Positions 11,297 through 23,722 of a stretch of DNA of 64,000 nt are shown here, piece after piece. Under the pieces are notes generated by a model. That model saw only the letters and a program-made list of their open reading frames with translations. It had not been told where the DNA came from and searched no databases. The position numbers were made by a program, and so were the translations under genes. How positions within the stretch are numbered: position 1 is the stretch's first letter; the number at the start of each line of letters is the position of its first letter. This stretch comes from Lysobacter sp. MMG2 (GTDB lineage: Bacteria > Pseudomonadota > Gammaproteobacteria > Xanthomonadales > Xanthomonadaceae): positions 496,001 to 560,000 of the forward strand of contig NZ_JAERQY020000002.1 in the NCBI RefSeq assembly GCF_016735495.2. Reading direction: 5' to 3'.

Positions 11297-12061
<765 letters not shown>

Positions 12062-12062
12062 C

Positions 12063-13361
12063 ATGAGCGCCTTGCTCGACTCCTTCGCGACTGCCTTCGA
12101 TTCGCTCGCCGCGCGCGATGCCGCCGGCCTGGGCGCCAGCCGCCGCGCCGCGCTCGATGCCGTCCTGCGTGACGGAATTCCGCACGCGCGGGTGGAAGCG
12201 TGGAAATACACGCCGCTGCGCTCGCTGGAACGCCGTGCGTTCGTAGTGGCGCCGGCAGGCATTCCGACGTTCGATGACGCATTGCTGGCGGCGATTCCCG
12301 GCCCGCGCATGGTCTTCGTCAACGGCCGCTTCGACGCCGCGCACAGCGATCTTTCCGGCTTGCCTGCCGGTGTGACGCTTCAGCCGCTCTCGCGCGTGCT
12401 GATCGAAGGCGAGCCGCGTGAAGCGAACTTCCTCGCCCGCCGCTTCGACCGCGCCGACGAAATCTTCGCGCGCCTCAACGCCGCACTCGCCGATGACGGC
12501 GTCGTGCTGCGCGCTCACGCGAACGCGCGGATGGATACGCCGATCCACCTCGTCTTCATCGGCGCTCCGGCGCAGGCCGACGAGGCCTGGCACCTGCGCC
12601 ATCTGATCGAGCTGCGCGACGGTGCGTCGCTGGCCGTCGTCGAGCATCACATCGCAACGGATGCGCACCAGCACCTCGCCAACAGCCTGATGCATGTCCA
12701 CCTGGGCACGAACGCGGTGCTGCGTCACGCACGCGTCCAGGACGAAGGCGCCGGCGCGACGCTGATGGCACGCAGCGACGCCGTGCTCGCCAAGGATGCG
12801 GCCTACCATCGGCTCGACCTCGAGCTCGGTGCGGGCCTGTCGCGCCATGAGCTCAACGCCGCGCTGCACGGCAACGGCGCACGCCTGCACGCCAACGGTG
12901 TGCTGCTCGCGTCCGGCAAGCGTCACCTCGACACGCGGCTGGGCATCGACCACGTCGGTCGCGACACGGCATGCGACCTCACTTGGCGCGGCATGGCGGC
13001 GGGCCGCTCCAAGGCGGCCTTCCACGGCGGCATCCTGATCCGCGAAGGCGCCGACGGCACCGCCGCGAACCTGTCGAACAAGAACCTGCTGCTCAGCGAA
13101 GGCGCCGAGATCGACAGCCAGCCCGTGCTGGAGATCCACGCCGACGAAGTGCAGGCCGCGCACGGCGCCACCGTCGGCCAGCTCGATACGACCGCGCTGT
13201 TCTACCTGCGCAGCCGCGGGTTGCCGGCCGAACAGGCGCGCTCGCTGCTGACCGCCGCCTTCTGCCGCGAAACGCTGGCCGTGTTCGCACCGGGCGACGC
13301 CCTGCGCGCCGCACAGGAAGCCCGCCTCGACACCGCGCTGGCCCGACTGGGCACCGTCTGA
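12063..13361 (+). CDS. sufD: Fe-S cluster assembly protein SufD
   Basis: The 432-aa product is the SufD subunit of the SufBC2D scaffold, needed for iron acquisition by the complex. The C-terminal half carries the SufB/SufD beta-helix pattern (DLTWRGMAAGRSKAAFHGGI, EIHADEVQAAHGATVG, FYLRSRGLPAEQARSLL). The N-terminal part has VEAWKYTPLRSLERR, usual for SufD. A GTG three codons upstream (12054) overlaps sufC and is less likely than the ATG at 12063. The conserved HGAT histidine is present. It is followed after 11 bp by sufS. Confidence 0.95.
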   Translation: MSALLDSFATAFDSLAARDAAGLGASRRAALDAVLRDGIPHARVEAWKYTPLRSLERRAFVVAPAGIPTFDDALLAAIPGPRMVFVNGRFDAAHSDLSGLPAGVTLQPLSRVLIEGEPREANFLARRFDRADEIFARLNAALADDGVVLRAHANARMDTPIHLVFIGAPAQADEAWHLRHLIELRDGASLAVVEHHIATDAHQHLANSLMHVHLGTNAVLRHARVQDEGAGATLMARSDAVLAKDAAYHRLDLELGAGLSRHELNAALHGNGARLHANGVLLASGKRHLDTRLGIDHVGRDTACDLTWRGMAAGRSKAAFHGGILIREGADGTAANLSNKNLLLSEGAEIDSQPVLEIHADEVQAAHGATVGQLDTTALFYLRSRGLPAEQARSLLTAAFCRETLAVFAPGDALRAAQEARLDTALARLGTV

Positions 13362-13372
13362 CTGGAGCACGC

Positions 13373-14617
13373 ATGAACCTGCCCGCCGCCGAATCCGCGT
13401 CCGCCATCGACTGGGCCCGCGTCCGCGCGGATTTCCCGCTGCTCACGCGCCAGGTCCACGGCAAGCCGCTGATCTACTTCGACTCGGCCAATACCGGACA
13501 GAAGCCCGAAAGCGTGATCGAAGCGGTCGATGACTTCTATCGCCGCCACAACGCCAACGTCAGCCGCGCGGTGCATGCGCTGGGCACCGAAGCGACCGAA
13601 GCCTACGAGGGCGCGCGCACGAAGCTGGCGAAGTTCCTCAACGTGCGCGGCGACGAACTCGTGCTGTGCAGCGGCACCACGTTCGCGCTGAATCTCGTCG
13701 CCTACTCGTGGGCACTGCCGCGCCTGCAGCCGGGCGATGCGATCGTGCTCACGCGGATGGAGCACCACGCCAACATCGTGCCGTGGCAGTTGGTCGCACA
13801 ACGCACGGGCGCGACGATCAAGGTCGCGGAGATCGACGAGCGCGGCGAACTGGATCTTGCGCAGCTGTATTCGCTGCTCACTCCGGAAGTGAAACTGCTC
13901 TCGCTCACGCACGTGTCGAACGTGCTGGGCACGGTGAATCCCGTTCGCGAGATCTGCCGCGAGGCCCGCAAGCGCGGCATCGTCACCGCCATCGACGGCT
14001 CACAGGCCGCGCCGCATCGCGCGCTCGACATCGCGTCCATCGGCTGCGACTTCTATGCCGTCACCGGGCACAAGATGTCCGGCCCCACCGGCACCGGCGC
14101 GCTGTGGGCACGCCGCGAGCATCTGGCCGCGATGCCGCCCTTCATCGGCGGCGGCGAGATGATCAAGGAAGTGCGCTTCGAGGGCACGGTATTCAACGAC
14201 CCGCCGCATAAGTTCGAGGCCGGCACGCCGAACATCGCCGGCTTCGTCGGACTCGGCGCCGCGGTCGACTATCTCTCGACGCTGGGCATGCACAACGTCG
14301 AGACGCGCGAGCAGGAATTGCTGGCCCACTTCAACGAAGCGGTTTCTTCCGTCGAGGGCCTACGCATCTTCGGCCAGGCGCGCGAGAAGGCCGCGGTGGT
14401 GAGCTTTCTGATCGAGGGCGCGCACGCGCACGACCTGGCGACACTGCTCGACCTGGAGGGCGTGGCGATCCGTTCCGGCCACCATTGCGCGCATCCGCTG
14501 ATGCAGCATTTCGGCGTGCCGGCGACATGCCGCGCGTCCCTCGCCTTCTACAACACACACGAAGAAATCGAAGCCTTCGTTACCGCCCTGCGCAAGGTGC
14601 GTAAACTGCTCGCATGA
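13373..14617 (+). CDS. sufS: cysteine desulfurase SufS
   Basis: The 414-aa group II PLP-dependent desulfurase removes sulfur from cysteine and feeds it to the SUF scaffold. The PLP lysine is K234 in VTGHKMSGPTG, the cofactor-binding HH pair is in RMEHHANIVPW, and the catalytic cysteine is C372 in RSGHHCAHP. The start MNLPAAESAS follows the sufD stop by 11 bp with GGAG upstream. SufS normally needs a SufE or SufU sulfur acceptor; neither is in this operon. Its stop overlaps the next ATG by the ATGA arrangement. Confidence 0.97.
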   Translation: MNLPAAESASAIDWARVRADFPLLTRQVHGKPLIYFDSANTGQKPESVIEAVDDFYRRHNANVSRAVHALGTEATEAYEGARTKLAKFLNVRGDELVLCSGTTFALNLVAYSWALPRLQPGDAIVLTRMEHHANIVPWQLVAQRTGATIKVAEIDERGELDLAQLYSLLTPEVKLLSLTHVSNVLGTVNPVREICREARKRGIVTAIDGSQAAPHRALDIASIGCDFYAVTGHKMSGPTGTGALWARREHLAAMPPFIGGGEMIKEVRFEGTVFNDPPHKFEAGTPNIAGFVGLGAAVDYLSTLGMHNVETREQELLAHFNEAVSSVEGLRIFGQAREKAAVVSFLIEGAHAHDLATLLDLEGVAIRSGHHCAHPLMQHFGVPATCRASLAFYNTHEEIEAFVTALRKVRKLLA

Positions 14618-15168
14618 ACACCACTGTCGATACGCCGGCACGGCCCGGCCTGAAATTCCGCAACGCCACACATGCCGACATCGATGCGCTGGTCGCGCTC
14701 GTGGAATCGGCCTACCGGGGCGACGTGAGCAAGCAGGGCTGGACGACCGAGGCGGACATGCTCGGCGGCCGCCGTACCGGCCCGGACGATATCCAGGCGT
14801 GCATCGATCGTCCGCGCAGCGTCATCCTGATCGCCGAGCGTGCGGATGCAGAGCTGATCGCCTGCGCGCATGTAGCCGAGGAGAACGGCGCGGGCTACTT
14901 CGGCATGTTCTCCGTGTCGCCCACGCAGCAGGGCGGCGGCATCGGCAAGCAGGTCATCACCGAGGCCGAGCGCCTGGTTCGCGAAGACTGGTCGTTGCCG
15001 GCGATGCGCATGACCGTCATCGACATCCGTGACGAGCTCATCGCGTTCTACGAGCGCCGTGGCTATCGCCGCACCGGCATCAAGAAGCCCTTTCCGTACG
15101 GCGACGAGCGCTTCGGCGTTCCCAAGCGCGACGACCTGCGTTTCGAGGTGCTGGAGAAGTCGCTGTGA
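14614..15168 (+). CDS. GNAT-family N-acetyltransferase
   Basis: The 184-aa product has the GNAT fold: FRNATHADIDALVALVESAYRGD at the N-terminus, the acetyl-CoA-binding SPTQQGGGIGKQVITEAE around residues 104-122 (the Q-x-x-G-x-G pattern is seen as QQGGGIGK) and LIAFYERRGYRRTG in motif B. The acceptor cannot be deduced. Overlap by ATGA with sufS and by GTGA with the Rieske gene places it firmly in the SUF transcript, so its substrate may relate to iron-sulfur metabolism or stress, but this is only context. Confidence 0.85.
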   Translation: MNTTVDTPARPGLKFRNATHADIDALVALVESAYRGDVSKQGWTTEADMLGGRRTGPDDIQACIDRPRSVILIAERADAELIACAHVAEENGAGYFGMFSVSPTQQGGGIGKQVITEAERLVREDWSLPAMRMTVIDIRDELIAFYERRGYRRTGIKKPFPYGDERFGVPKRDDLRFEVLEKSL

Positions 15169-15491
15169 GCGACAACTGGGTCTTCGTCTGCGCCACATCG
15201 CAACTGCTCCCTGGTGAGCGCACCGTGGCCTGGGACGGCGATACACCGATCCTCGTCGTCAACTACGACGGCGATTACTACGCGCTCGAGGACAAGTGCT
15301 CGCACGAGGACTTCGAGTTGTCCGCCGGCAATTACGACGGCGACGAGGCCACGATCGAATGCGTCCTGCACGGAGCGAAGTTCGACGTGCGCGATGGGCG
15401 CGCACTTTGCGCGCCCGCTTACGAGCCCGTGCTGAAGTTTCCGGTGAAGGTCGACGACGTCGGGATCTGGACGCGGGACGATCGCGGCTGA
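15165..15491 (+). CDS. Rieske [2Fe-2S] ferredoxin
   Basis: This 108-aa soluble protein has a complete Rieske cluster motif, C45-x-H47 (DKCSHED) and C66-x2-H69 (ECVLHGA), with no membrane anchor. It resembles the ferredoxin subunits of non-haem iron oxygenases (BphF/NirD-like). The GTG start overlaps the acetyltransferase stop by one base. As the last gene of the SUF operon it may be an electron donor for cluster assembly or simply a client protein; there is no oxygenase gene beside it. Confidence 0.88.
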   Translation: MSDNWVFVCATSQLLPGERTVAWDGDTPILVVNYDGDYYALEDKCSHEDFELSAGNYDGDEATIECVLHGAKFDVRDGRALCAPAYEPVLKFPVKVDDVGIWTRDDRG

Positions 15492-15783: not shown

Positions 15784-15802
15784 AATGAGAATTCCTCTCA
15801 TT
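15784..15802 (+). promoter_or_regulatory. Fur box
   Basis: AATGAGA-ATTCC-TCTCATT is a perfect 7-bp inverted repeat matching the alternating AATGAnA/TnTCATT core of Fur operators. It lies 55 bases before the receptor ATG in an AT-rich island that stands out from the flanking GC-rich DNA. It predicts iron repression of the whole operon to 23722. Confidence 0.85.
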
Positions 15803-15857
15803 ACCATTCAACGCCGAACCGCGGCCGTGCCGCCTGACCTCTCCCCCAGGGATTCCC

Positions 15858-18200
15858 ATGCACAACAGGAAGTTCGTCGTCTCGCCGCTCACCGGCGCCC
15901 TTGCCCTCGCGATCGCCGCCCCCGTTCTGGCCGATCCGGCCGGCGAGGCTGCCGACGCGCGCAACCTGGACAAAATCGAAGTCCACGGCGAGTACGTCGA
16001 GAAGCCCTCTTCGGTGAAGTACACGCAGCCGCTGCTCGACACGCCGCAGACCATCACCGTGGTCACCCGTGACGTGATGGACCAGCAGAACCTGATCGGC
16101 CTACGCGACGTGCTCAGCACCCTGCCGGGCATCACCTTCGGCGCGGGCGAAGGCGGCGGCGGTTACGGCGACAGCATCACGCTGCGCGGCTTCAACGCCA
16201 ACAGCGACATCACCACCGACGGCGTTCGCGACAGCGCGCAATACACGCGCACCGACAACTTCAACCTGGACGCCGTCGAACTGATCAACGGCGCCAACTC
16301 GGTGTACTCGGGCGCAGGCTCGGTGGGCGGCAACATCAACCTGGTCAGCAAGGTCGCACGCAGCGGCGACTTCACCGTGCTGCAGGCGGGTGCGGGCACC
16401 GACAGCTTCGGCCGCCTCACGGTGGACAGCAACACGGACCTGGACAACGGCACCGCCGTGCGCGTCAACGCGATGGTGCACCAGAACGACGCCCCGGGCC
16501 GCGACCGCGAGACCTTCGAGCGCTGGGGCTTCGCGCCGTCGGTCGCGTTCGGCCTGGACGAGGACACGCGCTTCACCGCCAGCTACTTCCACCAGAGCGA
16601 CGACAACATCCCGCAGTACGGCGTGCCGTTCTTCAGCGCGTTCGGCGGGCCGCTGCCGGGCGTGGATCCGAGCAACTACTACGGCTACCACAACGTCGAC
16701 CGCCAGAAGATCGACATCGACATGGTGACCGGCGTGTTCGAGCACGACTTCAGCGAGAACACCACGCTGCGCAGCCTGGCGCGCTACCAGCAGGTCGAGC
16801 AGCTGAGCATTGTCAATCCGCCACAGGGCACGTGGTGCCTGGCGAATGGAACCAATCCGGCGGGCGGCGCCTGCTCGGTCACGGTCAACGGTGCGCTGGT
16901 CCGGGTTCCGCCGGACATGTACCAGCCAACGGGTCCGCGCGGCAACACGCGCGACACGCGCAACACCATCGCGATCAGCCAGACCGACCTGACCACGCGC
17001 TTCCAGACCGGCTCGGTGAGGCACTCGCTGGTGACGGGCGTGTCGATCTCGCAGGAGAACTTCGACCTCGACACCGGCAACGTGCTGCGCACCGCCAACG
17101 GGACGATCGTGCCGTTGCCGCTGATGTCGTTGCCCAACCCGGATTCGACCTACCTCGGGCCGATCAACTACATCCGCAGCAGCACGAGTGAAGGCAAGCT
17201 CGACAACCAGGCCCTCTACGTGTTCGACACGCTGGAGTTCAACGACCAGTGGATGTTGAACCTCGGCGCCCGCTACGAGCACAACGAAGGCGACACCGTT
17301 TCGTACACGTACAACACGACCGCCGGCAGCCCGCTGCTGGGCCGCCCCACGGCCGTGACCGTGGGCGAAAACAAGGACGATCTGTTCTCCTACCGCGCGG
17401 GCCTGGTCTTCAAGCCGGTCGAGAACGCCAGCCTGTATCTGTCGTACTCCGACAGCAAGACGCCGTCGAAGGCGTCGGTCAACGGCACGTGCACCCCGGT
17501 CAGTTCGACCACCGGCGCCACCGGCACGGCCAATTGCAATGTCGATCCGGAAACCGCGGTCAACATGGAATTCGGCGGCAAGTGGGACATCAACAACCGC
17601 CTGGCGCTGACCGGCGCGGTGTTCCGCAACGAGCGCGAGGACTACAAGGTCGCCGACCCGGGCAATCCGGACAATCCGACCGGCGAGCAGCAGCTGGACG
17701 GCAAGGCGCGCGTCGACGGTGTCACGCTCGGCGCGGCCGGGCGCCTCACCCATGACTGGTCGATCTTCGCCAACGTGACCTGGCTCGACAGCGAAGTGCT
17801 GCAGGGCGTGTCCGACTTCTGCCGCGCCCATCCGTCGACCGCCTGCGCCAACACGCCCGCCAATCCCGATCCGCTCAAGGGCCTGCCGATCACCGGCACG
17901 CCGGAGCGCTCGGGCAGCCTGTGGACCACGTACGACCTGCAGCAGTGGACCTTCGGCTACGGCGTGACGTACATGAGCAACTACGACGTCTACACCGGCA
18001 ACGGTGCCAACATCGCCGAGGTGAAGGGCTTCACCACGCACCGTGCGATGGTCGGCTACGACATCAACGAGCGCTTCGCGCTGCAGCTCAATGTCAACAA
18101 CCTGTTCGACAAGGAGTACTACACGCGCATCCGCAACAACGGCTGGGCGACGCCCGGCGATGCGCGCTCGGTGGTGCTGATGGCCACCTACAGGTTCTAA
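15858..18200 (+). CDS. TonB-dependent siderophore receptor
   Basis: The 780-aa outer-membrane receptor has a signal peptide (HNRKFVVSPLTGALALAIAAPVLA), a plug domain at about residues 45-165 (TPQTITVVTRDVMDQQNLIGLRD, SITLRGFNANSDITTDGVRDSAQ, INGANSVYSGAGSVGGNINLVSK) and a barrel ending in ATYRF with the terminal Phe expected for outer-membrane insertion. The plug and the C-terminal FDKEYYTRIRNNGWATPGDARSV are of the catecholate siderophore receptor type (Fiu/CirA-like). A possible TonB box is LDKIEVHG near residue 36. It is the first gene after the Fur box and heads the iron operon. Confidence 0.93.
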   Translation: MHNRKFVVSPLTGALALAIAAPVLADPAGEAADARNLDKIEVHGEYVEKPSSVKYTQPLLDTPQTITVVTRDVMDQQNLIGLRDVLSTLPGITFGAGEGGGGYGDSITLRGFNANSDITTDGVRDSAQYTRTDNFNLDAVELINGANSVYSGAGSVGGNINLVSKVARSGDFTVLQAGAGTDSFGRLTVDSNTDLDNGTAVRVNAMVHQNDAPGRDRETFERWGFAPSVAFGLDEDTRFTASYFHQSDDNIPQYGVPFFSAFGGPLPGVDPSNYYGYHNVDRQKIDIDMVTGVFEHDFSENTTLRSLARYQQVEQLSIVNPPQGTWCLANGTNPAGGACSVTVNGALVRVPPDMYQPTGPRGNTRDTRNTIAISQTDLTTRFQTGSVRHSLVTGVSISQENFDLDTGNVLRTANGTIVPLPLMSLPNPDSTYLGPINYIRSSTSEGKLDNQALYVFDTLEFNDQWMLNLGARYEHNEGDTVSYTYNTTAGSPLLGRPTAVTVGENKDDLFSYRAGLVFKPVENASLYLSYSDSKTPSKASVNGTCTPVSSTTGATGTANCNVDPETAVNMEFGGKWDINNRLALTGAVFRNEREDYKVADPGNPDNPTGEQQLDGKARVDGVTLGAAGRLTHDWSIFANVTWLDSEVLQGVSDFCRAHPSTACANTPANPDPLKGLPITGTPERSGSLWTTYDLQQWTFGYGVTYMSNYDVYTGNGANIAEVKGFTTHRAMVGYDINERFALQLNVNNLFDKEYYTRIRNNGWATPGDARSVVLMATYRF

Positions 18201-18263
18201 TCACGCTTCACCCAGGCCACGCGACGCCCGGCCCCGCCGGGCGCTCGCATGAAGGAATGCCCG

Positions 18264-18950
18264 ATGCTGCTGCAGGTTCCGCAAGTCCTCACCGCCGAAC
18301 AGGTGGCCCATTGCCGGGACCGCCTGCGGCAGGCCGGCTGGGCCGACGGCCGCATCACCGCCGGCCACCAGTCGGCGATGGCCAAGGACAACGCGCAGCT
18401 GCCGGAGAACGATCCGGTGGCGCGCGAGTTGGGCGGGCTGATCCTCGAGGCGCTGGCGCGCAACACCACGTTCTTCTCCGCGGCGCTGCCGCAGCGGATC
18501 TATCCGCCGCTGTTCAACCGTTACGGCGGCGGGCAGTCGTTCGGTTTCCACGTCGACAACGCGATCCGCTACGACCGCAGCCGCGGCGGTGCCGATCCCA
18601 TCCGTACCGATCTTTCGGCCACGCTGTTCCTCAGCGATCCGGACGATTACGACGGCGGCGAGCTCATCATCGAGGACACTTACGGCGTGCAGCGCGTGAA
18701 GCTGGCGGCCGGCGACATGGTGCTCTACCCGGGCACGAGCCTGCACAAGGTCACGCCGGTCACGCGCGGCGAGCGCGTGGCGTCGTTCTTCTGGATCCAG
18801 AGCCTGCTGCGCGAGGACGCGCAACGTCGGCTGATGTTCGAGCTCGACGTCTCGATCCGCCGCCTGACGCAGGACGTGCCGGAGCATCCGTCGCTCGTGC
18901 AGCTCACCGGCATCTACCACAACCTGCTGCGCCGCTGGGCCGAGCCCTGA
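18264..18950 (+). CDS. piuC: PiuC-like Fe(II)/2-oxoglutarate-dependent hydroxylase
   Basis: The 228-aa protein is a PKHD-type dioxygenase. Iron ligands H96 and D98 (FGFHVDNA) and H161 (TSLHKV) and the 2-oxoglutarate-binding R171 (GERVASFF) are all present. PiuC proteins are encoded next to TonB receptors and are iron-regulated; a role in processing ferric siderophores or in siderophore resistance is assumed. The ATG at 18264 has a GAAGGA ribosome site eight bases upstream; an in-frame ATG at 18249 would add five residues. It lies 63 bp after the receptor gene. Confidence 0.88.
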
Positions 18951-18957
18951 GGCGCGC

Positions 18958-19602
18958 GTGGGTCCTTCTTCCGCACCGCAGGATCTGGTCGCGCAGCAGC
19001 AGCGCCGTGGCTTCTGGCTGCGCACGCTGCATTCCTGGCACTGGATCAGCTCCGCCATCTGCCTGATCGGCATGCTGCTGTTCGCCATCACCGGCATCAC
19101 GTTGAACCATTCGGCCGCGATCGAGGCGAAGCCGGACACGCTCACGCGCAAGGTCGAGATGCCGGCTTCGGTGTTGCGTGCGCTGGGCAAGCGTGAGGAC
19201 GGCAACGCGCCGCTGCCGGGCACGGTCAGCGACTGGCTCAACGACGTGCTGCCGGTGTCGATCGGCGCGCAGCCGGCTGAATGGTCGAGCGAGGAGATCT
19301 ACCTGTCGCTGCCGCGTCCCGGCGGCGATGCATGGCTGAGCATCGACCGCGAAAGCGGCGCGGTGGAGTACGAGCGCACCACGCGCGGTTGGATCGCCTA
19401 CCTCAACGACCTGCACAAAGGCCGCAACGCCGGTGCCGCGTGGCGCTGGTTCATCGACGTGTTCGCGCTGGCCTGCCTGGTGTTCTGCGTGACGGGCCTG
19501 TTCCTGTTGCAGATGCACGCGCGGCAGCGGCGCATGACCTGGCCGTATGTCGCGCTCGGGCTCGCATTGCCGGTGTTGCTCGCCCTCCTCTTCATCCACT
19601 GA
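18958..19602 (+). CDS. PepSY-associated inner-membrane protein
   Basis: The 214-aa product has an N-terminal membrane helix (RTLHSWHWISSAICLIGMLLFAITGI, preceded and flanked by His residues), a periplasmic PepSY-like middle domain (SIDRESGAVEYERTTRGWIAYL) and a C-terminal hydrophobic pair (FIDVFALACLVFCVTGLFLL, YVALGLALPVLLALLF). The LHxWHW and LNDLHKGRNAG patterns are those of PepSY-TM proteins, several of which bind haem and carry electrons across the inner membrane. It starts with GTG, seven bases after piuC. In this operon it is the natural electron conduit between the cytoplasmic flavoprotein and the periplasm, which is an inference. Confidence 0.82.
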   Translation: MGPSSAPQDLVAQQQRRGFWLRTLHSWHWISSAICLIGMLLFAITGITLNHSAAIEAKPDTLTRKVEMPASVLRALGKREDGNAPLPGTVSDWLNDVLPVSIGAQPAEWSSEEIYLSLPRPGGDAWLSIDRESGAVEYERTTRGWIAYLNDLHKGRNAGAAWRWFIDVFALACLVFCVTGLFLLQMHARQRRMTWPYVALGLALPVLLALLFIH

Positions 19603-19633
19603 ACCTGCTTACTTTCAAAATAAGGGAGTTTCC

Positions 19634-20143
19634 ATGCGCGTCCAACTGACCATCGCGCTGAGCGGACTGCTCGCGTTGCCGGCCTACTCGGCCGAGATCG
19701 ACGTCAACGTGCAGATCCCCCAGCTCAACGTCGCCGAATACCACCGTCCGTACGTGGCGATCTGGGTCGAGGGCGCCGACCAGAAGGCCGCGGCCAACCT
19801 CGCCGTGTGGTACCAGCAGAAGGCCACCAACGAAGGCGCCGGTACCAAGTGGCTGCCCGACCTGCGCCAGTGGTGGCGCCGCAGCGGTCGCACGCTGAAG
19901 GTGCCGGTGGACGGCGTGACCGGTCCGACGCGCCCCGTCGGCACGCATGCGCTGAAGTTCGGCAGCCAGCATCCGGAGCTGGGCAAGCTCCCGCCCGGCG
20001 AATACACGCTGGTCGTGGAGGCCGCGCGCGAAGTCGGCGGCCGCGAGCTGCTGAAGATCCCCTTCACCTGGGGCGGCGCCAGCGCCGGCAAGGCGCAGGG
20101 CAAGTCCGAACTCGGCCTGGTCACGCTGGCCAGCAAGCCCTGA
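19634..20143 (+). CDS. DUF2271 exported protein with flavinylation-like motif
   Basis: The 169-aa protein has a signal peptide (MRVQLTIALSGLLALPAYSA) and a DUF2271 domain (NVAEYHRPYVAIWVEGAD, NLAVWYQQKA, WLPDLRQWWRRSGR). At residues 93-99 it has DGVTGPT, close to the D-x-x-[ST]-G-A-T site at which ApbE covalently attaches FMN in NqrC/RnfG proteins; the candidate flavinylated residue is T99. With an apbE gene three genes later, a periplasmic flavin carrier is a reasonable hypothesis. A GGGAG ribosome site precedes the ATG. The gap from the PepSY gene is only 31 bp. Confidence 0.82.
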   Translation: MRVQLTIALSGLLALPAYSAEIDVNVQIPQLNVAEYHRPYVAIWVEGADQKAAANLAVWYQQKATNEGAGTKWLPDLRQWWRRSGRTLKVPVDGVTGPTRPVGTHALKFGSQHPELGKLPPGEYTLVVEAAREVGGRELLKIPFTWGGASAGKAQGKSELGLVTLASKP

Positions 20144-20147
20144 TCCC

Positions 20148-20247
20148 GCTGTCGTCCCTGCGAAGGCGATCCAACTCGAAGACGCATCACGCCCGACGCC
20201 AGGCGTGAACTCGCGCAACGATGGATCCCCGCCTTCGCGGGAATGAC
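20148..20247. repeat. REP-like inverted pair
   Basis: A degenerate left copy (GTCGTCCCTGCGAAGGCGATCCA) and a good right copy (GATCCCCGCCTTCGCGGGAATGAC) face each other across the 146-bp gap between the DUF2271 and DUF4198 genes. It belongs to the same family as the pairs at 4.6, 8.3, 27.3 and 63.3 kb and is the only one inside this operon. Confidence 0.7.
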
Positions 20248-20289
20248 GGCAGAACGCGAACACACATCCACTTACGCAGGAGCATCGCA

Positions 20290-21102
20290 ATGAAGCCGAC
20301 CCTGAAGCTCGCCGCGCTCGCGCTGGCCCTTTCCCTTCCCTTCGCCGCGCAGGCACACAAGGCGTGGCTGCAGCCGTCGCAGACGGTGCTGGCCGGCAAC
20401 AATCCGTGGGTGACGGTGGACGCGGCCGTGTCCAACGACCTGTTCTACTTCAACCACGTCCCGCTGAAGACCGACAACCTCGCCATCACCGCGCCCGACG
20501 GCAGCACCGTGGCCGCGCAGAACGCCGCCACCGGCAAGTACCGCACGGTGTTCGACGTCGAGCTCAAGCAGACCGGCACGTACCGCATCGGCGTGGTCAA
20601 CAACTACGTCACCGGCAGCTGGGAAGACGCGAACGGCCAGACCAAGCGCTGGCGCGGCACCGAGGCGACCTTCGCCACCGAAGTGCCCAAGGACGCGAAG
20701 AAGCTGCAGGTCGGCCAGTCGGTGAGCCGTGTGGAAACCTTCGTCACCAGCGGCTCGCCGAACGAGACCGCGCTCAAGCCCAGCGGCGTGGGCCTGGAGC
20801 TGGTGCCGGTGACGCATCCCAACGATCTGTTCGCTGGCGAGGAGGCGAAGTTCCGCTTCCAGATCGACGGCAAGCCGGCGGCGAACCTGGACGTGGAAAT
20901 CGTCCGCGGCAACACGCGCTACCGCAACGCGCAGGACGAGCTGAAGGTGAAGACCGATGCCAAGGGCGAGTTCGTCGTGACCTGGCCGGAAGCCGGCATG
21001 TACTGGCTCGAAGCGAATTCCGAAGACAACAAGACCACGGTCAAGCAGGCCAAGCAGCGCCGCCTGGGCTATGTCGCCACGCTGGAAGTGCTGCCGCAGT
21101 AA
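20290..21102 (+). CDS. DUF4198 exported protein
   Basis: The 270-aa product has a signal peptide ([22 protein letters not shown]) followed directly by [12 protein letters not shown], the N-terminal His being characteristic of DUF4198 (NikK/CbtA-like) periplasmic proteins thought to handle metal ions. The body is beta-rich and Ig-like: [35 protein letters not shown] metal-sensing or metal-binding role in the periplasm fits the iron operon but is unproven. It is preceded by GCAGGAG as a ribosome site and lies 17 bp before apbE. Confidence 0.82.
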
Positions 21103-21119
21103 CGAAGACGCAACACGCA

Positions 21120-22097
21120 GTGGCCACGCACGCATCCGCGACGCAGCCCGCCCCGCGCGCCGTCGACATCCTCGGCGGCGCGACGATGGGCACGACCTGG
21201 TCGGTGAAACTCGCCGCGCCGCGCAACGCCGACCTGCATGCGCTGCACGCGGGCATCCAGTCGCGCCTGGACGACGTGGTCGCGCAGATGAGCAACTGGG
21301 AGGCCGGCTCGGACCTGAGCCGGTACAACGCGTCGGACGCGGGCTCGTGGCACGCGCTGCGCGATGACTTCTGGACGGTGCTGTCGTGCGCGCTCGACAT
21401 CGCACACGCCAGCGGCGGCGCGTTCGACCCGACCGTGGGGTCGCTGGTGGACGGATGGGGCTTCGGCCCGCCCAGCGCGGGCGCGTCCGCGTTCTCGCCC
21501 GAAGCCGCACGCGCCCACGTGCAGTGGCGGCGCGTGATCCTGGATCCGGCGCAGCGCCGCGCCTTGCAACCGGGCGGCACACGGCTGGACCTGTGCGCGA
21601 TAGCCAAGGGTTTCGGCGTGGACGCCGTGGCCGCCCATCTGCGCGCGCAGGGCATCGACGCGGCGCTGGTCGAAGTCGGCGGCGAACTCTACGGCTACGG
21701 CCGCAAGCCCGACGGCGCGCCATGGCGGGTGATCGTGGAAGGCTGGTCCGGCGACGAGGACGATGCGAACGAAGCGCGCGTGCTGGCGCTGGATGGCCTG
21801 GCGGTCGCGACGTCGGGCGATCGCTGGCACCGACGGGAGCACGAAGGCCGCGCGATCAGCCACACACTCGACCCGCGCAGCGGGCATCCGGTCGTGGATG
21901 CGCCGGCCGCGGTCACCGTCGTCGCCGCCGATGCGATGCGGGCCGACGCCTGGGCGACGGCGCTCACGGTGCTCGGCATGCACGATGGCTTCGACGCTGC
22001 ATGCGCGAACGGGCTCGCGGCACGCTTCGTGGACACGCGCGGCGACGCCGTGACCGAACGCATGACACCTGCCTTCGAAACCCTGTTGCACGCATGA
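21120..22097 (+). CDS. apbE: FAD:protein FMN transferase ApbE
   Basis: The 325-aa protein is an ApbE-family flavin transferase, which attaches FMN from FAD to Thr/Ser of target proteins in the periplasm. Family signatures are GGATMGTTWSVKL near the N-terminus, FDPTVGSLVDGWGFG, the LDLCAIAKGFGVDAVA block, VEVGGELYGYG and AVATSGDRWHRREHEGRAISHTLDPRSG. The GTG at 21120 is chosen because the first downstream ATG (21186) would cut into the conserved GATMGT block. No clear signal peptide is visible, which is odd for a periplasmic enzyme; an unidentified upstream start cannot be excluded. Its stop overlaps the next ATG. Confidence 0.93.
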   Translation: MATHASATQPAPRAVDILGGATMGTTWSVKLAAPRNADLHALHAGIQSRLDDVVAQMSNWEAGSDLSRYNASDAGSWHALRDDFWTVLSCALDIAHASGGAFDPTVGSLVDGWGFGPPSAGASAFSPEAARAHVQWRRVILDPAQRRALQPGGTRLDLCAIAKGFGVDAVAAHLRAQGIDAALVEVGGELYGYGRKPDGAPWRVIVEGWSGDEDDANEARVLALDGLAVATSGDRWHRREHEGRAISHTLDPRSGHPVVDAPAAVTVVAADAMRADAWATALTVLGMHDGFDAACANGLAARFVDTRGDAVTERMTPAFETLLHA

Positions 22098-23722
22098 ACA
22101 CCGATTCTTCACTGAAGACCTGGCTCGGCAACGGCTTCGTGCTGGCGATGCTGCTCGCCTTCGTGCTCGTCTTCGGGCGCTGGCAGTCGGGGCCGTGGTG
22201 GATCGCTTCGCCGCGCGCGGGGAGCTGGGTGCTGGCGACGCTGGTGGTGCTCGCCTTCCTCGGCCTGTGCACGGCCACATGGCTGCGCGTGCGCGAGGAA
22301 CGCGCCGCCGCGCGCGTCGACCCGGGCAGCGGCGAGGATGCGCTGCTCCTCGCGTGGGCGAGCCAGACCGGATTCGGGCAGCAGCTCGCCGAACACACGG
22401 CGCAGGCGCTGCGCGGCGCCGGGATGGACGTGCGCCTGCTGCCGCTGCATCGCATCGATGCCACCGTGCTGCAGACGCATCGGCGCGCGCTCTTCATCGC
22501 CAGCACGACGGGCGAAGGCGATCCGCCGGACCATGCGCTTGGATTCACCCGGCACGTGCTCGGCCAGTCGATGGCATTGGCCGGGCTGGAGTATGCGGTG
22601 CTCGCGCTGGGCGATCGCGCCTACGACCGCTTCTGCGGTTTCGGTCGGCGACTGGACCAGTGGCTGCACCACAACGGCGCGCAGCCGTTGTTCGATCGCA
22701 TCGACGTCGACGCCGGCGACGCCGGCGCGCTGCGCCACTGGCAGCATCGCCTGGGGCAGCTCGCCGGCCATGCGGAGCTGGCCGACTGGAGCGCACCCGA
22801 ATACCGCCCGTGGCGCCTGCTGGAACGCCAGTGGCTCAACCCCGGCAGCCTCGGCGGGCCCGCGTATTACCTCGCCCTGGTGCCGGCGGATGCGCGCGAT
22901 CTGACGTGGCAGGCGGGCGACATCGCGGAGATCGGGCCGTGCCATGCGCCGGCCGATGTCATGGCGTGGCTGCTTGCGTCCGGCCAGGATGGAACGGCGG
23001 ACATCGAGCGCGACGGCGACACGCTGGAGCTTGCGACGCTGCTGCAGCACTCGCGTCTGCCGGAACCGGCGAGCGTGCGGGGTCAGTCCGCGCAGACCGT
23101 GGCCGACGGCTTGCAGGCGTTGCCGCATCGCGAGTATTCGATCGCCTCGCTGCCCGCCGACGGCAGCCTCCAGTTGCTGGTCCGCCAGATGCGCCATCCC
23201 GACGGCCGCCTGGGCAGCGGAAGCGGCTGGCTCACCGCGCACGCGGACGTCGGAATGCGTATCGACCTGCGCATCCGCCGCAACGCGGCTTTCCATCCGC
23301 CGCAGGACGACCGGCCGATGGTGCTCATCGGCAACGGCACGGGCCTGGCGGGCCTGCGTGCGCACCTGAAGGCGCGTGCTGCTGCGGGCCATCATCGCAA
23401 CTGGCTGGTGTTCGGCGAACGTCAGCGCGCGCACGACTTCCATCATCGTGACGAGATCGAAGGCTGGCTGCGCGACGGCCATCTGCAGCACCTGGACCTC
23501 GCCTTCTCCCGCGATGGTGCCCAACGCACCTACGTGCAGGACCGTCTGCACGAACAGTCCGCGCGCCTGCGCGAATGGATCGCCGACGGCGCGGCGGTCT
23601 ACGTCTGCGGCAGCCTGGAAGGCATGGCGCCGGCGGTCGATGCCGTGCTGCGCGAGACGGTCGGCCTGGATGCGCTGGAAGCCATGGCCGCCGAGGGCCG
23701 CTACTGCCGCGACGTCTACTGA
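22094..23722 (+). CDS. membrane-anchored flavodoxin/FNR oxidoreductase
   Basis: The 542-aa product has two N-terminal membrane helices (GFVLAMLLAFVLVFG, WVLATLVVLAFLGLCTATWL), then a flavodoxin domain (SQTGFGQQLAEHTAQAL, TTGEGDPPDHA) and a ferredoxin-NADP reductase domain (REYSIASLP for FAD, GNGTGLAGLRA for NADPH), ending RYCRDVY. The layout resembles CysJ with a membrane anchor. It would oxidise NADPH in the cytoplasm and pass electrons through FAD and FMN to a membrane partner, plausibly the PepSY protein of the same operon. Overlap with apbE by ATGA supports joint function. A role in sulfite reduction is unlikely, as cysJ is present separately. Confidence 0.9.
   Translation: MNTDSSLKTWLGNGFVLAMLLAFVLVFGRWQSGPWWIASPRAGSWVLATLVVLAFLGLCTATWLRVREERAAARVDPGSGEDALLLAWASQTGFGQQLAEHTAQALRGAGMDVRLLPLHRIDATVLQTHRRALFIASTTGEGDPPDHALGFTRHVLGQSMALAGLEYAVLALGDRAYDRFCGFGRRLDQWLHHNGAQPLFDRIDVDAGDAGALRHWQHRLGQLAGHAELADWSAPEYRPWRLLERQWLNPGSLGGPAYYLALVPADARDLTWQAGDIAEIGPCHAPADVMAWLLASGQDGTADIERDGDTLELATLLQHSRLPEPASVRGQSAQTVADGLQALPHREYSIASLPADGSLQLLVRQMRHPDGRLGSGSGWLTAHADVGMRIDLRIRRNAAFHPPQDDRPMVLIGNGTGLAGLRAHLKARAAAGHHRNWLVFGERQRAHDFHHRDEIEGWLRDGHLQHLDLAFSRDGAQRTYVQDRLHEQSARLREWIADGAAVYVCGSLEGMAPAVDAVLRETVGLDALEAMAAEGRYCRDVY

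Follow-up and report, generated by a model that had tools for sequence, protein, structure and literature searches.

A gene set of the soil bacterium Lysobacter sp. MMG2 is described here that occupies positions 15784-23722 of a 64,000-nucleotide (nt) stretch of its 4.17-Mb genome (contig C3; the whole stretch is referred to as the window). Behind a sequence resembling a Fur box, seven genes follow one another on the + strand, encoding a TonB-dependent receptor, a PiuC-type dioxygenase, a PepSY membrane protein, the exported proteins DUF2271 and DUF4198, an ApbE-type flavin transferase and a membrane-anchored flavodoxin/FNR protein. All seven were recognised by Pfam and NCBIfam profiles, in agreement with an initial annotation made from the sequence alone. 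The set is probably an iron-starvation operon in which a ferric chelate is imported through the receptor and reduced in the periplasm by a flavin relay. Its ApbE, the sole one found in the genome, has no recognisable export signal; the presumed substrate, DUF2271, is exported, and this mismatch poses the question of which side of the membrane the flavinylation of DUF2271 occurs on.

Gene content and conservation of the locus

The Fur-like site ahead of the receptor agrees in 16 of 19 bases with AATGAGAATCATTCTCATT, which we take to be the Fur consensus, where 0.00 such matches are expected by chance in the window. Allowing up to three mismatches, four distinct sites occur in the whole genome and none was obtained with the reversed control. 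The box had initially been called near-perfect; with this number of matching bases it is better described as good, and its presence ahead of the receptor was confirmed as a Fur-like sequence match. In relatives, the 330 nt upstream of the matched start of the receptor were scanned, and a site with at most six mismatches was found in 55 of 73 loci and not in the remaining 18, compared with 1 of 73 for a control stretch inside the receptor gene. This distribution suggests an operon controlled by Fur and belonging to the iron-starvation type.

The receptor scores above the cut-off of the TonB-siderophore subfamily (TIGR01783, 244.2 against 223.5) and under that of the Fiu equivalog (NF007349, 388.9 against 686 bits). 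Likewise, the dioxygenase exceeds the cut-offs of the PRK05467-type NCBIfam models NF003975 (368 against 180 bits) and NF003973, and lies under that of the YbiX model NF003972 (265 against 399 bits). The best structural matches of the flavodoxin/FNR protein are sulfite reductase flavoproteins (6efv, E 1.2e-47, and also 1ddg), and two hydrophobic helices can be seen by eye at its N-terminus.

The initial annotation had proposed a search for the same gene order in other genomes, and the order does recur. Among 121 loci (the window and L049-L168, mostly from Lysobacteraceae), 115 have every gene of the five-gene core in the collinear order PepSY-DUF2271-DUF4198-ApbE-flavodoxin/FNR. Directly ahead of the core (<300 nt), the receptor and PiuC are present in 45 of the loci, and further upstream in 48; the receptor occurs alone in 16, and neither gene in 12. 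Within the family, 168 of 297 genomes have a DUF2271 match above the cut-off; evenly drawn samples gave 6 of 274 genomes for the class and 65 of 398 for the phylum. Judged by DUF2271, the closest named relatives are Lysobacter soli, L. arvi and L. prati (87-88% identity). Three records are unusual: a Lysobacteraceae-like locus assigned to Bacillus subtilis (L143, DUF2271 identity 72%), which probably reflects a contaminated assembly; a close DUF2271 cassette without ApbE in the stretch in Rhodopirellula solitaria (Planctomycetes; L161, 61% identity), due to transfer or contamination; and a DUF2271 frame of 496 residues in a Pseudoxanthomonas record (L142), which perhaps continues into the next gene.

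Table 1. Features of the locus, with positions counted from the first base of the window
Feature	Position	Strand	Basis or remark
Fur-box-like palindrome AATGAGAATTCCTCTCATT	15784..15802	.	16/19 against the assumed consensus
TonB-dependent siderophore receptor, Fiu-like (PiuA/CciT kind)	15858..18200	+	PF00593, PF07715
PiuC/YbiX-type Fe(II)/2-oxoglutarate dioxygenase (CciO kind)	18249..18950	+	PF13640, PF18331
PepSY_TM_like_2 three-helix membrane protein, GTG start, candidate di-heme electron conduit	18958..19602	+	PF16357 282 bits, PF03929 48 bits
DUF2271 protein, Sec-type signal peptide, candidate covalent FMN carrier	19634..20143	+	PF10029 167 bits
Flavinylation-like motif DGVTGPT of DUF2271, presumed acceptor Thr99	19910..19930	+	pattern and conservation
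DUF2271-DUF4198 gap, 146 bp, with inverted repeat	20144..20289	.	one arm belongs to a repeat dispersed in the genome
DUF4198 exported protein, ATG 20290, predicted mature N-terminus His (codon 20356-20358)	20290..21102	+	PF10670 209 bits
ApbE-type FAD:protein FMN transferase, GTG start, no export signal	21120..22097	+	PF02424 243 bits
Membrane-anchored flavodoxin/FNR protein, CysJ-like, presumed NADPH dehydrogenase	22094..23722	+	PF00258, PF00175

The tight spacing attributed to the operon holds for gaps of 48, 7, 31 and 17 bp and for an ATGA overlap of 4 bp; the gap between DUF2271 and DUF4198 is not short. It contains a 21-nt inverted repeat, one arm of which recurs in the genome with up to two mismatches at 100 places on the + strand and 90 on the - strand (0 for the reversed control). 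Directly upstream of the operon (12054-15491), a profile search detected genes for a GNAT acetyltransferase and for a Rieske protein, together with SufD-like and SufS-like genes assigned by eye; 67 of the 121 loci have relatives of SufS, GNAT and Rieske, the end of a suf operon, in the stretch as well.

Conserved features of PepSY, DUF2271 and DUF4198

The PepSY protein belongs to the PepSY_TM sequence family of FoxB-type reductases (PF03929, 48.2 bits against a cut-off of 28.8) and has four conserved candidate heme histidines, of which His28, His51 and His153 are invariant in 47 of 47 sequences and His187 is present in at least 90%. His25 is likewise present in at least 90%, and the last residue of the protein, His214 (codon 19597-19599), is again found in 47 of 47. 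In the AlphaFold2 (AF2) model (mean predicted local distance difference test, pLDDT, 87.4; predicted template modelling score, pTM, 0.70), helices 6-50, 159-190 and 192-213 are arranged around a soluble domain. Judging from the order of the helices, His28 and His187 would form a pair on the cytosolic side and His51 and His153 another on the periplasmic side, as candidate ligands of b-type heme. A search of the PepSY profile against PDB sequences gave no match at E<=1.

In DUF2271, a signal peptide was recognised by a hydrophobicity test and by eye, with no twin arginine in its n-region. Asp93 and Thr99 are kept in 41 of 41 sequences of one alignment and are invariant in a second of 44. The published substrate motif of ApbE, D-x-x-[S/T]-G-A-[S/T], contains an alanine (PMC12052999); the window's DGVTGPT keeps the Asp, the Thr, the Gly and the acceptor Thr and has proline in place of the Ala. 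When either residue is allowed at this position (D-x-x-[S/T]-G-[A/P]-[S/T]), the pattern is found in 102 of 103 DUF2271 proteins and is nearly confined to them within the cassette (PepSY 0/103, DUF4198 0/103, flavodoxin/FNR 0/102, PiuC 0/80, receptors 0/94, ApbE 1/103). The genome encodes one DUF2271 according to profile searches, which detected no FMN_bind and no NqrB/RnfD; the searches did not extend to further substrate families such as DUF3570. DUF2271 thus appears to be the only recognisable ApbE substrate found in this genome. In A. ursilacus, the organism's own ApbE flavinylates a DUF2271 protein (PMC8238504). The AF2 model of the window's DUF2271 (mean pLDDT 74.6) was left out of the mechanism because residues 90-94, in the motif region, score below 50.

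DUF4198 is a candidate metalloprotein. At the predicted cleavage site, the residue that follows the AxA-like end of the signal peptide is a histidine in 41 of 41 sequences, the window's included; a strict pattern for this place was matched by 148 of 154 proteins, and the remaining six read AH there too. Further histidines are conserved at mature positions 34 (39/41) and 154 (41/41). The N-terminal His is likely a metal ligand. IsDUF4198 of Ideonella sakaiensis likewise carries a signal peptide followed by an N-terminal His, and in its nickel-bound structure of 2025 the ligands are this residue and His18 (Ni(II) dissociation constant, Kd, 18 nM; PMC12537917). Metal binding by DUF4198 is therefore an idea already in print. 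As the next conserved histidines of the window's protein stand elsewhere, its metal site may differ. A single-sequence PDB search with DUF4198 returned four weak matches (E 0.005 to 0.99) to unrelated enzymes, which were discarded.

An ApbE without a recognisable export signal

From 300 nt upstream of position 21099 to the ATG of the ApbE domain at 21186, the only in-frame ATG, GTG or TTG codon is GTG 21120. The 22 residues between this start and the MGTTW that opens the domain contain no hydrophobic stretch, and a hydrophobicity scan recognised neither a signal peptide nor a lipobox. The enzyme itself seems complete: its nearest solved structure is 5mgy, PF02424 is accompanied by the Ser-His-Asp triad, and the spacing of the triad is that of Vibrio cholerae Ser241-His257-Asp285 as quoted in PMC12052999. 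By counts of alignment columns, the triad is kept in 121 of 123 ApbEs, with gaps in the other two.

The distribution of leaders was surveyed across related loci. A leader was scored if, near a possible start, the highest-scoring stretch of 11 residues free of D, E, K, R, H, N and Q had a mean Kyte-Doolittle value of at least 1.7. The sample comprised 155 loci from partly overlapping sets, 19 of them without ApbE in the stretch, and the 136 ApbEs were reduced to 123 by dropping identical domains. Six loci without a match to our own DUF2271 model (L206-L211) were left out of the 155, and the genomes G616 (L207) and G620 of this group were examined as L258 and L259. In the cassettes, 112 of 123 ApbEs have no leader (14 pass at a lower threshold of 1.5), and a leader is present in 113 of 123 DUF2271 proteins, 121 of 122 DUF4198 proteins and 0 of 88 PiuC proteins. 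Among the non-cassette ApbEs of DUF2271-bearing genomes, on the other hand, 38 of 42 have a leader (13/14 and 25/28 in two sets, one of which covers 30 of 35 listed matches), many with a lipobox by eye. L212, L252 and L254 were moved from these to the DUF2271 group; their ApbEs are leaderless and are located in a second DUF2271 operon type.

This second type (L257-L259) is made up of DUF2271, a leaderless ApbE and, between the two, a long flavodoxin/FNR protein whose N-terminal part is large. Its DUF2271 proteins match our own model weakly (E 2.4e-6 to 4.9e-5); the Pfam match is strong for G616 and G620. The leaderless state thus recurs both in distant groups and in a differently built operon, and a single ApbE was found in 47 of the 60 genomes checked.

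Some variants were noted along the way. Among the 42 non-cassette enzymes, six second ApbEs (L218-L221, L223 and L224) have a DUF2271 match in the same short stretch and are probably fusions; one of these arrangements was read as a single frame of 506 residues containing ApbE and DUF2271 (G946), and the other five fusions are suggested by a long frame. Five of the six are leadered at 1.7 (L223 reaches 1.54), and the two with readable sites (L218, L220) no longer have the D-x-x-[S/T]-G motif. Nine leaderless ApbEs (L172, L180, L182, L183, L188, L192, L195, L197 and L200) share an N-terminal RVLIP/RVLVP-like stretch by eye. Tat export as a general route for DUF2271 was considered and rejected: an RR precedes the hydrophobic stretch in 1 of 11 proteins beside a leadered ApbE and 1 of 125 beside a leaderless one.

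A putative flavin relay, its alternatives and known systems

Under iron starvation, a ferric chelate would enter through the TonB receptor, and electrons from cytosolic NADPH could pass via the flavin adenine dinucleotide (FAD) and FMN of the CysJ-like protein to two b-type hemes of the PepSY protein, and from these to FMN on Thr99 of DUF2271 and finally to the Fe(III)-chelate, conceivably a ferric siderophore. The freed Fe(II) may be taken up by DUF4198 through its N-terminal His, and the imported ligand, or a compound related to it, might be the substrate of PiuC. The initial annotation had drawn a similar path, which in part gains support, as it fits the candidate heme histidines, the ApbE triad and the invariant flavinylation Thr. 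Three elements go beyond it: the ApbE without export signal, the proline in the motif and the N-terminal His of DUF4198 as a candidate for metal binding.

FAD is made in the cytosol, and the FMN could be joined there to the DUF2271 precursor; the flavinylated precursor would then leave through Sec. Chains with attached groups that exceed FMN in size can pass through the Sec pore. Attachment before export is the simplest reading of a leaderless sole ApbE together with an exported DUF2271; whether it happened this way could go either way on the present evidence.

Some points weigh against the relay as a whole. The AF2 monomer of PepSY gave no clear match to the FoxB fold: Foldseek returned no match at E<=0.001, and VIA-align placed 7abw 44th. 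Iron as the acceptor and the nature of its ligand are inferred. The proline at the DUF2271 site departs from the published alanine, and in a fumarate reductase an A-to-V change in the motif lowered flavinylation to about half (PMC12052999). Other points concern attachment in the cytosol. The leader test is a hydrophobicity scan and not SignalP, and 10 to 11 of the 123 cassette ApbEs do have a leader (L204 passes 1.7 and is doubtful). A leadered ApbE is encoded elsewhere in 14 of 14 examined genomes whose cassette stretch has no ApbE, and also in G162 (L085); if DUF2271 is flavinylated at all in these genomes, this presumably takes place in the periplasm. The A. ursilacus ApbE was expressed as a 'signal peptide-truncated' protein (PMC8238504), and an early study quoted in PMC12052999 found that an ApbE lacking the first 20 residues did not function in vivo. 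The ApbE frame of the window runs open upstream as far as DUF4198, so that no stop bars a rare frameshift fusion with DUF4198 there. Finally, proline in the motif accompanies 0 of 10 leadered and 93 of 112 leaderless ApbEs in raw counts (one ApbE has no readable motif beside it); the tree holds four leader changes, eight motif changes and two usable independent pairs, and this correlation is unsupported since too few independent changes remain after correction for descent.

The most credible alternative, possible but somewhat doubtful, retains the same reductase and places flavinylation in the periplasm, where either ApbE would arrive by a path that needs no classical signal peptide or a different transferase, so far unrecognised, would act. 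ApbE is typically anchored in the membrane on the periplasmic side and modifies secreted targets there (PMC12052999), which agrees with this alternative, as do the leadered enzymes beside or apart from DUF2271 cassettes and the open frame in the window. The recurrence of the leaderless state in distant groups and in the second operon type, and the single ApbE of most genomes checked, speak against it. Export of ApbE as a frameshift fusion with DUF4198 was rejected as a general route, as a stop in the ApbE frame bars it in 43 of 108 leaderless loci and the relative frames vary (45/33/30). As leadered and leaderless ApbEs both occur with DUF2271 cassettes, both sides of the membrane may be in use.

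It is unlikely that a cytosolic ApbE leaves DUF2271 unmodified, with DUF2271 working without covalent FMN or ApbE having another target. Besides the proline, the motifs of the 19 ApbE-less stretches lend this idea some weight: eight are altered (SAAT 2, SSAT 3, TSAT 2, TSAS 1), nine read GAT or GPT and two are unreadable, and three altered motifs (SSAT, TQPT, TSPT) lie beside leaderless ApbEs. They are countered by the invariant Asp and Thr of the aligned sets, the near absence of the motif from the other cassette proteins (at most 1 of about 100), the lack of FMN_bind and NqrB/RnfD matches in the genome and the intact ApbE triad. Among individual cassettes without ApbE in the stretch (L085, L093, L094, L161 and L162), three carry SAAT or SSAT and two SGPT.

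A relay serving another metal or redox task, for instance with nickel or copper, is very improbable: nickel binding by IsDUF4198 points that way, and the Fur-like site, the receptor/PiuC pair, the suf genes alongside and the Caulobacter cassette described below, with its control by iron and its phenotype in EDTA, all point to iron.

In many genomes, the substrate is exported and the one ApbE next to it is leaderless, which misfits the usual picture in which exported proteins receive FMN outside the cytosol. If attachment in the cytosol is true, a covalent cofactor would be loaded before Sec translocation and periplasmic FAD would no longer be needed. For annotation, a census of ApbEs limited to those with signal peptides, such as the first count in PMC8238504, omits the leaderless enzymes; the later cluster step of that study need not.

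The iron gene set itself is of a published kind, to which the operon adds a well-conserved member. In PMC8238504 (Meheust et al., 2021), PepSY-like flavinylation clusters were defined by PF03929 or PF16357 within five genes of ApbE or DUF2271 and at least one target gene with a signal peptide, a definition under which the window's operon falls. Of 3220 such clusters, 2833 contain DUF2271, 1500 DUF4198 and 231 a TonB receptor, and iron reduction, including that of siderophore iron, was proposed as their function. The initial annotation had regarded the whole as not a textbook pathway; with the model of 2021 and the regulation and phenotype known from Caulobacter (PMC3751524, PMC12004947), it is therefore not an unpublished one. 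The published clusters share PF16357 PepSY-like proteins, DUF2271, DUF4198 and ApbE with the window, which differs in its leaderless ApbE, in TGPT instead of [S/T]GA[S/T] and in the receptor and PiuC at the head of the operon. In the accessible text of that article, no discussion was found of where the cluster ApbEs reside. Pairs of DUF4198 and DUF2271 have also been noted near iron-responsive receptors (PMC7190382), and DUF2271 and PepSY models are treated in PMC11334425.

In Caulobacter, the genes CC_3059-3063 (CCNA_03155-03159) encode PepSY, DUF2271, DUF4198, ApbE and a sulfite-reductase-like flavoprotein in the same order as in the window. They are bound by Fur and repressed by iron (PMC3751524), and insertions in this locus and in cciT-cciO cause a loss of fitness in ethylenediaminetetraacetic acid (EDTA) (PMC12004947). 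The Caulobacter receptor and dioxygenase genes cciT-cciO (CCNA_00028/00027) lie elsewhere, whereas in the window their counterparts precede the core. The succession of a TonB receptor and a PiuC-type dioxygenase is also that of the CciT/CciO, PiuA/PiuC and Fiu/YbiX pairs (PMC12004947), from which the window differs in that its pair is joined to a flavin relay and its receptor stays under the Fiu equivalog cut-off. With the PepSY reductases FoxB, HiuB and VciB, the PepSY protein has in common the PF03929 relationship and histidines that fit two candidate heme sites; a FoxB-like PepSY protein acts in ferrioxamine use (PMC13001220).

What is new here is that a leaderless ApbE is paired with a carrier that is exported, and that the carrier's site reads GPT; the rest is mostly in print. 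Searches of open-licence PMC texts found no description of either. Intracellular ApbEs are known from Klebsiella pneumoniae and trypanosomatids (PMC12052999), but the proteins they modify are located in the cytosol or form one chain with ApbE, whereas the substrate in the window bears a signal peptide.

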